Assembly (NCBI GenBank): GCA_021157585.1
Contig: JAGGWH010000156.1
Location: 1-54,033 of the forward strand
Length of the DNA: 54,033 nucleotides
DNA from: Bacteroidales bacterium
Lineage (GTDB): Bacteria; Bacteroidota; Bacteroidia; Bacteroidales; UBA12170
Reading direction: 5' to 3'
The first letter of the stretch is position 1. Every line of letters starts with the position of its first letter. Of the stretch, positions 4,346 through 48,260 are shown piece after piece. Both the position numbers and the translations under genes were made by a program. The notes beneath the pieces were generated by a model. That model saw only the letters and a program-made list of their open reading frames with translations, did not search any database and was not told the DNA's origin.

Positions 4346-4391
4346 AATAAGCGATATCTCCAGTTTGTACAACTAGAGAATACCGCTTATT
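4346..4391 (-). terminator. long imperfect hairpin ending the heme/barrel operon
   Basis: Arms AATAAGCGATATCTC and GAGAATACCGCTTATT pair with a one-base bulge and a mismatch, around a near-palindromic centre AGTTTGTACAACT, so almost all 46 nt can fold into one stem. Read on the minus strand it is followed by TGTTTTTAG, as expected of an intrinsic terminator. It sits about 80 nt after the last gene of the five-gene operon and before the thioesterase gene. Confidence 0.6.
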
Positions 4392-44484: not shown

Positions 44485-46323
44485 TTATTCCACCGTAACC
44501 GATTTAGCCAAATTTCTTGGCATATCCACTTCGCAATTACGAGCAACGGCAATATGATAAGCTAATAACTGCATAGGAATAGTAGCCAAAAGCGGTACAA
44601 GCATTTCTTCAGTTTCAGGAATTTCTATAACATAATCTGCCAAACGTTTAACTTCAGTATCGCCTTTAGTTACGATGGCTAAAATGATTCCTTTACGTGC
44701 TTTTATTTCTTCAATATTACTTACTACCTTTTCGTAGGTTCCTTTGTTTGTAGCAACAACTACCACAGGCATATTTTTATCGATAAGTGCTATTGGTCCG
44801 TGTTTCATCTCAGCTGCCGGATAACCTTCGGCATGGATATAAGAAATTTCTTTTAGTTTAAGAGCACCTTCTAAAGCAACGGGGAAATTATATCCTCTTC
44901 CTAAGTATAAGAAATTACGTGCATTTACAAATGCTTTAGATATCTCTTTAACTTGTTCATTTATGCGTAAGGCTTCTTCTACTTTAAAAGGAATTTCTTC
45001 TAATTCGTGTAACAAATGATGGAATTTTGAACGCTCGATAGTCCCTCTCATTTTTGCTAATCGCAGAGCCATTAATGTAAGAACAGACACTTGAGCGGTA
45101 AATGCTTTTGTAGAAGCTACTCCTATTTCCGGTCCGGCATGGGTATAACTTCCGGCATGAGTTTCTCTGGCAATACTGGATCCAACAACATTACAAATAC
45201 CTATTATTGTCGCTCCTTTTTCTTTTGCCATACGAATAGCCGCCAATGTATCAGCAGTTTCTCCGGATTGCGAAATAGCAATAACTACATCATCTTCGTT
45301 TATAATGGGGTTACGGTAACGGAATTCTGAACCATATTCCACCTCAACAGGAATACGTGCAATATCTTCAAATAAATATTCTCCAACAAGAGCAGCATGC
45401 CAAGAAGTACCACAAGCTACCATAATAATTCTTTTGGCAGCAGCCATCTTATCCTCGTATTCAGAGATACCTCCTAAAGAAATTGTTTCCTGATCTAAAC
45501 GTAAACGCCCACGCATACTATCTCTGATAGAAAGTGGTTGCTCATATATTTCTTTCATCATAAAATGATCGTAACCACTTTTTTCTATAGCCGACAGATT
45601 CATTTCCAATTCTTGCACATAAGGTATTTCCTCATGATCAGCAATAGTGATAATTCTCATTTCTCCCTCACGTGGAATAATTGCTATTTCTTCATCATTA
45701 AGATAAACCACATGTTTTGTATATTCTATCAATGGAGTTGCATCAGAAGCAATAAAATGTTCATCTTCTCCAATACCAACAACTAATGGACTTCCTTTTC
45801 TGGCAGCAATTAATAAATCGGGATCTCCTTTAGATAAAATAGCTATGGCATAAGCACCAACAACTTGATTTAAAGCAATACGGACGGCTTCAACTAAATC
45901 TAGACCTTCTTTTTGTTGAACATCTTCAATAAGGTGAATTAAAACTTCAGTATCTGTTTCGCTTAAAAAATTATGCCCTCGCATTTGCATCTCTTCACGC
46001 AAAGAAGCATAATTCTCAATAATTCCATTATGAATCATTGCAAGCGTTTTATATTGAGAATAGTGAGGGTGAGCATTAAGTTGATTGGGTTCTCCGTGAG
46101 TAGCCCAACGAGTATGACCAATTCCTATGGTACCACTAATGTCTTTTCCTTTAACACTAGCTTCAAGGTCTTTAACCCTACCTGCTGTTTTATATAGTTT
46201 TAAATCTCCATCGGCAAGGGCTATTCCGGCACTATCGTAACCTCTATATTCTAATCTTTTTAATCCTTTTATTAAAATGGGATAAGCCTCTCTGGGGCCA
46301 ATGTATCCGACAATTCCACACAT
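44485..46323 (-). CDS. glmS: glucosamine-6-phosphate synthase, isomerizing
   Basis: GlmS makes glucosamine 6-phosphate from fructose 6-phosphate and glutamine, the entry step to peptidoglycan and LPS amino sugars. Cys2 after processed Met (MCGIVGYIGPREA) is the glutaminase nucleophile. Two SIS domains follow (ACGTSWHAALVGEYL and YLGRGYNFPVALEGALKLKE), and the tail DMPRNLAKSVTVE is conserved. The length, 612 residues, is normal. I see no glmS ribozyme in the leader. Confidence 0.97.
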   Translation of the reverse strand: MCGIVGYIGPREAYPILIKGLKRLEYRGYDSAGIALADGDLKLYKTAGRVKDLEASVKGKDISGTIGIGHTRWATHGEPNQLNAHPHYSQYKTLAMIHNGIIENYASLREEMQMRGHNFLSETDTEVLIHLIEDVQQKEGLDLVEAVRIALNQVVGAYAIAILSKGDPDLLIAARKGSPLVVGIGEDEHFIASDATPLIEYTKHVVYLNDEEIAIIPREGEMRIITIADHEEIPYVQELEMNLSAIEKSGYDHFMMKEIYEQPLSIRDSMRGRLRLDQETISLGGISEYEDKMAAAKRIIMVACGTSWHAALVGEYLFEDIARIPVEVEYGSEFRYRNPIINEDDVVIAISQSGETADTLAAIRMAKEKGATIIGICNVVGSSIARETHAGSYTHAGPEIGVASTKAFTAQVSVLTLMALRLAKMRGTIERSKFHHLLHELEEIPFKVEEALRINEQVKEISKAFVNARNFLYLGRGYNFPVALEGALKLKEISYIHAEGYPAAEMKHGPIALIDKNMPVVVVATNKGTYEKVVSNIEEIKARKGIILAIVTKGDTEVKRLADYVIEIPETEEMLVPLLATIPMQLLAYHIAVARNCEVDMPRNLAKSVTVE

Positions 46324-46374
46324 ATCGTTTTATTTAGGGATAAGATTCTGGCGTTAATCATTTGTTAAGTCGAG

Positions 46375-46382
46375 CAAAATTA
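46375..46382 (-). promoter_or_regulatory. -7 element TAATTTTG of glmS
   Basis: TAATTTTG lies 51 nt before the ATG at 46323. Confidence 0.55.
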
Positions 46383-46551
46383 AAAAATAAAGTGTTTTGA
46401 AAAAAATATTGACTAATCTCACTGTAACGATATTCAAAAATACACTATTAATTTCAATTTTGATATTCAAATTCATATTTATTTGCTTGCTTATTTTCTA
46501 TCTGCCATATTTTCTGTATTTTTAGAGAGTTATACATAGAGCTAATTATTT

Positions 46552-46559
46552 TAAATTTG
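46552..46559 (+). promoter_or_regulatory. -7 element TAAATTTG of the radical SAM gene
   Basis: TAAATTTG lies 20 nt before the ATG at 46580. Confidence 0.55.
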
Positions 46560-46579
46560 TGTTTAATACTTAAGTTATA

Positions 46580-47587
46580 ATGATAAAACATTTTACTATA
46601 CCTATTTTTATTCCTGAATTGGCCTGTCCGTTTCAGTGTGTTTTTTGTGATCAACGAAAAATATCAGGGTCTATTAAAGTCCCTGATTTAAAAGAGGTAG
46701 ACGATATTATTCAAAAACATTTAAGTACATTGCCAACAGAAAAAGTACAAATTGAGATTGGTTTTTTTGGTGGAAATTTTACCGGAATACCTGAATCCGA
46801 CCAGCATAATTTTTTAAAGATTGCTCAAAAATATGTAGATAGCGGAAGGGTTGATTCCATCCGTCTTTCTACTCGTCCCGATTATATATCCGATAGTATT
46901 CTTTCTCTTTTAAATGAATATTCTGTTAAAACAATAGAGTTAGGTGCTCAATCGATGAACGAGGGCGTGTTGATTAAATCGGGGAGGGGGCATACGGCTC
47001 AAGATGTTATAGACAGCTCCAAATTAATACAGGAAGCCGGATTTAATCTTGGTTTACAAATTATGCTTGGGTTACCCGGCGACACCAAAGAAAAATGCTT
47101 AGAAACAGCAGAACAAATTGTTGCTCTTCAGCCACATGACATCCGTATTTACCCAACATTGGTTATTAAAGGTACGGAATTAGCAGAACTTTTTAAAAAT
47201 GGAAGGTACGAACCTTTGAGTTTGCAAACTGCTGTACTTTGGTCTAAAGATATTTATAGTATTTTCGATAAAGCAGGTTTAAATATTATCCGTGTTGGCT
47301 TACATCCTTCGGAGGAATTAACAGATAGCAAATCCTTACTCGCAGGACCTTATCATCCTTCTTTTCGAGAATTAGTATTAACTGAATTATGGAAAGATCG
47401 TTTTTTAGAAAGACTTGAATTTTCAAAATCTAAGTCTCTAATAATTTATGTTGCTGCATCAGAACTTAATTATGCTATTGGTTATAACAGTACCAACAAA
47501 AAATTATTAGAACAAAAATTTGAGGCTGTAAAAATAAAAATCGACCAAAAATTGATTAACTATTCTTTTTATGCTGATTATTATTGA
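46580..47587 (+). CDS. Elp3-like radical SAM protein
   Basis: This 335-residue protein binds a [4Fe-4S] cluster through C16-PFQ-C20-VF-C23, the CX3CX2C motif of radical SAM enzymes. Later segments match the Elp3-like radical SAM core: GFFGGNFTGIP, RLSTRPDYIS, ELGAQSMNEGVL, GHTAQDV, QIMLGLPGDT and RIYPTLVIKGTELAEL. The acetyltransferase domain of true Elp3 is absent. The substrate is unknown. Its last 17 bp overlap the start of a DUF6873-like gene, so the two are translated together. Confidence 0.9.
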   Translation: MIKHFTIPIFIPELACPFQCVFCDQRKISGSIKVPDLKEVDDIIQKHLSTLPTEKVQIEIGFFGGNFTGIPESDQHNFLKIAQKYVDSGRVDSIRLSTRPDYISDSILSLLNEYSVKTIELGAQSMNEGVLIKSGRGHTAQDVIDSSKLIQEAGFNLGLQIMLGLPGDTKEKCLETAEQIVALQPHDIRIYPTLVIKGTELAELFKNGRYEPLSLQTAVLWSKDIYSIFDKAGLNIIRVGLHPSEELTDSKSLLAGPYHPSFRELVLTELWKDRFLERLEFSKSKSLIIYVAASELNYAIGYNSTNKKLLEQKFEAVKIKIDQKLINYSFYADYY

Positions 47588-48260
47588 TAAGCGTATCCCA
47601 AAAGAAGCCAAAAAACGCTTATCTTATTTTGGTGATTTAGTAGAATTATCGACCCAAAATATTACTTATTCGGCTATTTCGGGTCATCCTGATATTTTTC
47701 TTTGTCAAACTCCAAAATCTTTAATTTGTGCTCCCAACTTACCGGAAAATTACCAAACTATCTTCAAAAACAAAGGGATTGATTTTATCCTAGGAAATAA
47801 TCTTGTAGGATCAAGTTTTCCCGAAACCAGCTTTTATAACTGTTTAGTAACCGAAGACTATCTTTTTCATAAAAAAGGACATACAGACAAGCAGATTCTT
47901 AAACAGTGCGAAGAGATAGAATTTATTAATTTACCACAAGCCTATACCAGATGTAGTTTGATTGCTATTTCGCCGCAAAATTTTATAAGCTCCGACAAAG
48001 GCATAGAAAAGGCATTGCGAAAACACAGGCTAAATGTACATTATTTTTCATCTAAAGAAATCCTTTTGCCCGATATGCCACACGGATTTATTGGTGGTGC
48101 TTTGGGCTTACATTCTAATAAACTTTTTGTTATTGGAAACCCTGATTTTCATTCTTGGGGGAATGAGTTTAAGGCACTCATTAAGCGGCAAGATATTGAA
48201 TTAATTTCTCTTTATAATGGATCTTTTTTTGATGGTGGTGGAATTTTCTTTTTAGAATAA
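47571..48260 (+). CDS. DUF6873-like (guanidino-modifying enzyme fold) protein
   Basis: This 229-residue protein resembles the DUF6873 family, predicted to have the five-bladed fold of guanidino-modifying enzymes such as arginine deiminase. Shared features include the opening LIIIDKRIP, HPDIFLCQTP, the GNNLVGSSFPETSFYNCLV tract and the C-terminal HGFIGGALGLHSNKLFVIGNPD with its HG and conserved Asp. Cys, His and acidic residues typical of that fold are present but the catalytic set is unproved. The gene overlaps the radical SAM gene by 17 bp. Whether the two act on the same substrate is inference. Confidence 0.65.
   Translation: MLIIIDKRIPKEAKKRLSYFGDLVELSTQNITYSAISGHPDIFLCQTPKSLICAPNLPENYQTIFKNKGIDFILGNNLVGSSFPETSFYNCLVTEDYLFHKKGHTDKQILKQCEEIEFINLPQAYTRCSLIAISPQNFISSDKGIEKALRKHRLNVHYFSSKEILLPDMPHGFIGGALGLHSNKLFVIGNPDFHSWGNEFKALIKRQDIELISLYNGSFFDGGGIFFLE

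Follow-up and report, generated by a model that had tools for sequence, protein, structure and literature searches.

The described systems closest to this locus are the radical SAM enzymes Elp3 and MnmL and the proteins of the pentein fold. Elp3 joins a radical SAM core to an acetyltransferase domain and to an N-terminal part with a tRNA-binding role, MnmL (YtqA) is a stand-alone radical SAM protein with no acetyltransferase, and both work on tRNA. In the excerpted text of PMC13315578, mutation of E207, K302 or Y304 in M. infernus Elp3 abolishes most or all activity, the K302R exchange nearly abolishes it, and the three residues are proposed to position acetate. Among penteins, those that modify guanidines have a His, a Cys and two acidic residues in common according to the excerpts of PMC6447857, whose enzyme carries the triad Cys366, Asp226 and His224, that is, an H-x-D pair together with a Cys near the C-terminus. 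Other penteins are non-catalytic: part of the text of PMC3820961 describes such proteins taking part in the assembly of ribosomes and a pentein protein within a complex that edits RNA.

In the window, the whole stretch of 54,033 nucleotides of Bacteroidales DNA that was analysed, a radical SAM gene (46580..47587, + strand, ATG start, 335 aa) runs into a gene of the DUF6873 family (PF21778; 47571..48260, + strand, ATG start, 229 aa) with no intergenic space, the two frames sharing 17 bp (47571..47587, + strand). Both open reading frames and their overlap are present as the first-pass annotation had reported them, and both genes are real. The arrangement goes beyond chance, as dozens of other genomes carry homologues of the two in this order, most of them with an identical overlap of 17 bp. 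Because the frames overlap in the window's lineage, their translation is probably coupled. Upstream, a divergent glmS-like gene, named by eye (44485..46323, - strand), leaves an intergenic region of 256 bp (46324..46579), the presumed site of a shared promoter. The single promoter that had been claimed for the pair did not emerge from a sigma-70 scan, which covers this promoter type only: no + strand site lies upstream of 46580, and the scan gave 6 sites in total versus a mean of 11.7 in shuffles.

The first protein belongs to the radical SAM superfamily, scoring above the gathering threshold for PF04055 (70.8 bits, cut-off 29.5) and carrying a CX3CX2C motif whose cysteines (C16, C20, C23) are invariant in the 28 sequences of alignment A2, with PF16199 as a C-terminal domain (67.7 bits, cut-off 31.9); its pI is 5.9. 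The structure model (pLDDT 91.5) has an Elp3-type fold, in that Elp3 chains top the fold list (VIA Z 19.1-24.2), led by 8asw_C (Z 24.2, 285 residues aligned, rmsd 3.3), with NifB (Z 19.1), MgmA (18.5) and viperin (18.3) as the best rows outside Elp3, and profile comparison relates the family to Elp3 at E 1.8e-30. With Elp3 (TIGR01211) it shares the radical SAM core and the TRPD, ELG-Q and IYP motifs, but it reaches 95.8 bits versus an NCBIfam cut-off of 350 and starts at Elp3 residues 75-90, so that the N-terminal part of Elp3 is missing. The acetyltransferase domain of Elp3 is also missing, in agreement with the first-pass annotation: Pfam finds no GNAT/KAT domain in the protein, which ends at 335 aa, and its last 59 residues, a small extra C-terminal domain, have no Pfam match when searched alone. 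At the acetate site, E207, K302 and Y304 of Elp3 align with S97, R189 and Y191, all invariant in the same 28 sequences (for the mapping, chain 6ia8 was read with an index offset of 16, deduced from how the three residues are spaced); two of the three residues differ, Glu207 being replaced by Ser and Lys302 by Arg, and the Tyr is kept. The spacing of the cluster cysteines does not speak against Elp3, since D. mccartyi Elp3 also has CX3CX2C.

With MnmL/YtqA (TIGR01212) the window protein shares a stand-alone architecture free of acetyltransferase and the TRPD motif, but it scores 93.7 bits versus a cut-off of 180, and aligned MnmL sequences of four relatives have CX11CX2C, GTRPDC and KFH where it has CX3CX2C, STRPDY and RIY. 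No named-family cut-off of NCBIfam is reached, and the cut-offs and active-site residues rule out plain membership of Elp3 or MnmL. Because the cut-offs of both families are failed and the active-site residues differ, the radical SAM protein is, to judge from its sequence, a third branch of the Elp3/MnmL group with its own active site. That the gene as a general rule replaces a missing MnmL is ruled out as well, for 14 of the 17 genomes that carry the radical SAM gene also hold MnmL over its cut-off. Across the window's genome and 40 relatives, MnmL/YtqA is over cut-off in 37 of 41; none reaches the cut-off in three carriers of the pair, the window's genome (G000), G001 and G007, nor in G019, which may reflect real loss or gaps in MAGs.

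The DUF6873 protein is a full-length member of its family (PF21778, 194.8 bits, cut-off 27, profile positions 1-228 of 228), and a PDB sequence search with it gave no match. Its structure model (pLDDT 97.9) is a pentein, a five-bladed beta/alpha propeller, which aligns with DDAH-1 at VIA Z 13.3 over 204 of 229 residues and with eIF6 at VIA Z 12.0, the best Foldseek hit being a human amidinotransferase (E 4e-6). Conservation was judged on 47 sequences from three phyla, recruited by Pfam profile or tblastn and including the window's; this set was used instead of the A3 alignment, which is biased, two of its motifs being search patterns. Invariant in all 47 are C128, Q123, D142, D221, G172, G176, G189 and G223, and nearly so are the H-x-D pair H39 and D41 (46 of 46 with letters) and N90 (46 of 47). 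With the catalytic penteins (DDAH, amidinotransferases, agmatine and peptidylarginine deiminases) the family has in common the fold over its full length, a conserved Cys, an H-x-D pair and further acidic residues; in contrast, their usual C-terminal catalytic Cys is missing: in 44 of 47 sequences the stretch from residue 215 onwards contains no Cys, and the other three have one at three different positions. The conserved residues are distributed over the five repeats assigned by eye (I to V), the Cys lying in repeat III and H-x-D in repeat I. The resemblance to guanidino-modifying enzymes proposed in the first-pass annotation thus holds for the fold, but not for the active site, where the C-terminal Cys is absent and invariant Cys, His and Asp stand elsewhere. 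We read these residues as a putative catalytic site rebuilt in other blades; registering the C-terminus against DDAH by eye was dropped, and the claim made is limited to absence of the cysteine. DUF6873 also resembles eIF6/Tif6 in fold and in size (about 225 aa), differing in being bacterial and linked to a radical SAM gene, and its conserved polar residues would argue against a non-catalytic pentein of the eIF6 kind.

The two genes travel together. In the window's genome and its 40 relatives, where the radical SAM family was called by profile A2 at E <= 1e-40, DUF6873 is present in 16 of the 41 genomes and the radical SAM gene in 17, and all 16 carry both (13 adjacent by listed coordinates, 1 fused, 2 on separate contigs). 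Among 395 genomes drawn over Bacteroidota, DUF6873 and the radical SAM gene occur in the same 7, always adjacent, and an eighth (G389) has a weak DUF6873 match with internal stops and no radical SAM match. The two samples have the window's genome in common and make up 435 distinct genomes, of which 22 hold an intact DUF6873 and, in 22 of 22 cases, the radical SAM gene too. A second phylum, to which the genome of locus L071 (titled Spirochaetota) belongs, was sampled with 247 genomes and gave DUF6873 over cut-off in 26 and the radical SAM gene in 43; every one of the 26 has both, 17 have the radical SAM gene only, and G576 has a DUF6873 match below cut-off with no radical SAM match. Going by listed coordinates, the two genes are adjacent in only 4 of the 26, and co-occurrence is therefore kept largely without linkage. 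Hypergeometric p values, which ignore kinship, are 4e-36 for Bacteroidota and 4e-24 for the second phylum. The counts of presence include copies in pieces: G650 has its DUF6873 split over two frames and G590 has it at two contig ends; the radical SAM gene is split over two frames in G445 and fragmentary in G442 and G456. The coupling is asymmetric, which the first-pass annotation did not foresee: DUF6873 hardly ever occurs in a genome that lacks the radical SAM gene, whereas the latter can occur alone, lacking DUF6873 over cut-off in 18 of 66 carrier genomes (17 of the second phylum, 1 of Bacteroidota), and the radical SAM protein therefore needs no obligate partner. A tree was built from 52 radical SAM sequences, 17 of which come from DUF6873-less genomes (16 of the second phylum plus G011; one further locus, of G671, did not cluster and is absent from the tree). 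These 17 are scattered, and they retain S97 in 17 of 17, R189 in 16 of 16 with letters and Y191 in 13 of 16, with Phe in 3. From these scattered positions and the kept S97 and R189, DUF6873 seems to have disappeared on several occasions, or to have escaped notice in incomplete genomes, with the radical SAM enzyme being retained. Two second-phylum sequences (G521, G544) branch with one of Bacteroidota (support 0.89), which would fit transfer of the radical SAM gene between phyla.

Seen from the DUF6873 side, the best 80 of 302 matches to its alignment are named loci in which the radical SAM gene is adjacent in 47 and within 5 kb on the same strand in 11; for the remaining 22 it lies elsewhere in 19 of the genomes, sometimes as fragments, and 3 genomes, all MAGs of unstated completeness, gave no match. 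Two Persicobacter plasmid records contain DUF6873 and no radical SAM match on these plasmid records. The plasmid collection gave matches in no more than five records, which range from 0.29 to 2.6 Mb, and a search of viral contigs with DUF6873 only gave 19 pattern matches and no relative. Adjacent pairs tend to have the same geometry, since 38 of the 47 in these best 80 loci overlap by exactly 17 bp, counted from the residue aligned to the first Met of the window's DUF6873. In G015 a single protein of 611 aa holds both halves. Within the family of this genome (19 genomes, one genus) DUF6873 occurs in 16, each time in an open frame of 457-659 aa, and all 10 of the frames that were read have the cluster motif, STRPD, RIYP, HPD and the cysteine motif in-frame. 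As fused frames recur across the genus with both motif sets kept, an assembly error is unlikely, and the fusion is the strongest single sign of a functional link. The first-pass annotation had staked its proposal of one modification pathway on conservation of the two genes as neighbours; this conservation is seen, and co-occurrence, the common overlap length and fusion all back the proposal, so that functional coupling of the two proteins is very likely.

Gene neighbourhoods say less about the substrate. RNase III (rnc) lies directly upstream of the radical SAM gene, or slightly overlaps it, in all three Clostridia/Fusobacterium records (L260, L261, L262, from Acetoanaerobium, Monoglobus and Fusobacterium), which are all the radical SAM matches in the plasmid collection; no RNase III was found near the gene in the Bacteroidota or second-phylum loci examined (flanks 1.5-5 kb). 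Downstream are an smc-like gene, named by eye, in Acetoanaerobium and RNase E/G in Fusobacterium. The Fusobacterium record (2.1 Mb) has no DUF6873, that of Acetoanaerobium has it about 0.4 Mb from the radical SAM gene, and that of Monoglobus, at 0.29 Mb, is too small to judge its presence. Besides the pair itself, the commonest neighbour of DUF6873 is an aspS-like (aspartyl-tRNA synthetase-like) gene in 20 of the 80 named loci that are the best of 302 (next 10 of 80), for which one member was checked by Pfam, an example being L092 5708-7603. In 8 of 12 listed loci with an aspS neighbour the flank has no radical SAM gene, and an HD-domain protein, one member of which was checked by Pfam, stands beside DUF6873 in 6 of 21 loci (e.g. 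L244 3456-4016). Apart from the clusters of the pair, none of the 32 listed is common to radical SAM and DUF6873 loci, and the neighbours in the largest clusters listed show no common pathway. Of the RNA or arginine-like substrate suggested in the first-pass annotation, the RNA part finds a hint in the relationship to Elp3 and MnmL and in the RNase III gene of three loci; on these two grounds RNA is favoured as the substrate, at about even chances.

The pair may form a two-protein modification module in which the radical SAM enzyme acts first and DUF6873 second, probably on RNA, a reading that we put forward tentatively as a whole, although the order of the two proteins taken by itself is likely. 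In the first step the radical SAM enzyme would use a 5'-deoxyadenosyl radical, as its fold and cluster motif suggest by homology, to alter a substrate that would most likely be a tRNA or rRNA nucleoside, in the manner of Elp3 and MnmL. The altered residues of the acetate site (Ser97, Arg189 and Tyr191 versus Glu, Lys and Tyr of Elp3) suggest that the group handled is therefore probably not the acetate of Elp3. In the second step DUF6873 would act on the product of the first by cysteine-based hydrolysis or group transfer, and would therefore be useless without the radical SAM enzyme; lineages that lack it would stop at the first product, and in one genus the proteins of both steps are one polypeptide. 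Counting against the proposal are the missing Elp3 N-terminal part and the pI of 5.9 of the radical SAM protein, its occurrence without DUF6873, the few genomes and records with a DUF6873 match but no radical SAM match, the lack of RNase III near the gene in the Bacteroidota and second-phylum loci examined, and the neighbours with no pathway in common. The fullest form of the proposal, an RNA modified in two steps by a third Elp3/MnmL branch and by a pentein with a catalytic site rebuilt in other blades, is possible but doubtful.

Instead of RNA, the module might take as its substrate a free nucleoside or a small molecule, such as a metabolite of the arginine, agmatine or amidine type, since the catalytic penteins in the excerpts of PMC6447857 act on guanidine-containing compounds, the DUF6873 gene of Acetoanaerobium lies directly behind an ABC permease gene (PF02653), and that of Persicobacter is separated by two genes from an arginine decarboxylase gene. 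These two neighbours do not recur among the clusters listed, however, and the tRNA substrates of Elp3 and MnmL and the lost C-terminal cysteine of the guanidine enzymes weigh against such a substrate, which we regard as unlikely, if with a real share of the probability. A role for DUF6873 as a non-enzymatic subunit that binds RNA or protein and presents the substrate, like eIF6 or the trypanosome editing protein RESC5, is improbable to a similar degree. In the Foldseek ranking many eIF6 chains stand next to the guanidine enzymes, RESC5 is a VIA match at Z 11.8, non-catalytic penteins of this kind exist (PMC3820961, in part), the radical SAM protein has no Elp3 N-terminal part and the partners can be fused; yet over three phyla the invariant Cys, Asp and Gln and the nearly invariant His and Asn look catalytic, and S97 and R189 are unchanged in the 17 aligned radical SAM sequences from genomes without DUF6873, one being gapped at R189.

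That the radical SAM protein takes the place of MnmL, which serves the tRNA wobble uridine, or of Elp3 is very unlikely, even though these are the closest named families by score and the window's genome has no MnmL over cut-off: both scores lie far under the curated cut-offs, the active-site motifs are unlike those of either family, and most carrier relatives have MnmL besides. It is more improbable still that the genes are mere neighbours with no common function. They do lie apart in 22 of 26 second-phylum genomes, but each of these genomes with DUF6873 over cut-off still carries the radical SAM gene, and fused frames that hold both sets of motifs run across a genus.

The dependence of DUF6873 on the radical SAM gene points to a so far undescribed two-protein modification pathway, and a partner so dependent offers a direct handle on the product of the radical SAM family, which is found in Bacteroidota, Ignavibacteria, Spirochaetota, Clostridia and Fusobacteria. 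Should RNA be the substrate, the pair would contribute a further modification and put the pentein fold to a new use; to our knowledge, a pentein enzyme acting on nucleic acid would be the first. If it is a metabolite, radical chemistry would be tied to guanidine-type chemistry. Our searches of the open PMC literature gave no paper naming DUF6873, nothing on a pair or fusion of a radical SAM protein with a pentein (or GME fold), none for radical SAM with Elp3, ytqA and tRNA, and none on an Elp3-like radical SAM protein in bacteria.

Two variants of the radical SAM gene were also seen. The DUF6873-less genome G011, of the window's order, encodes a radical SAM protein of 318 aa (L213, 1329-2285) that is without the last strand, which the window encodes inside the overlap. 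In a Bacteroidetes MAG (L075, JAPLDH010000023.1) the radical SAM gene contains an in-frame TGA at 4346-4348; homology runs on in the same frame on either side of it, and the downstream DUF6873 frame is open.
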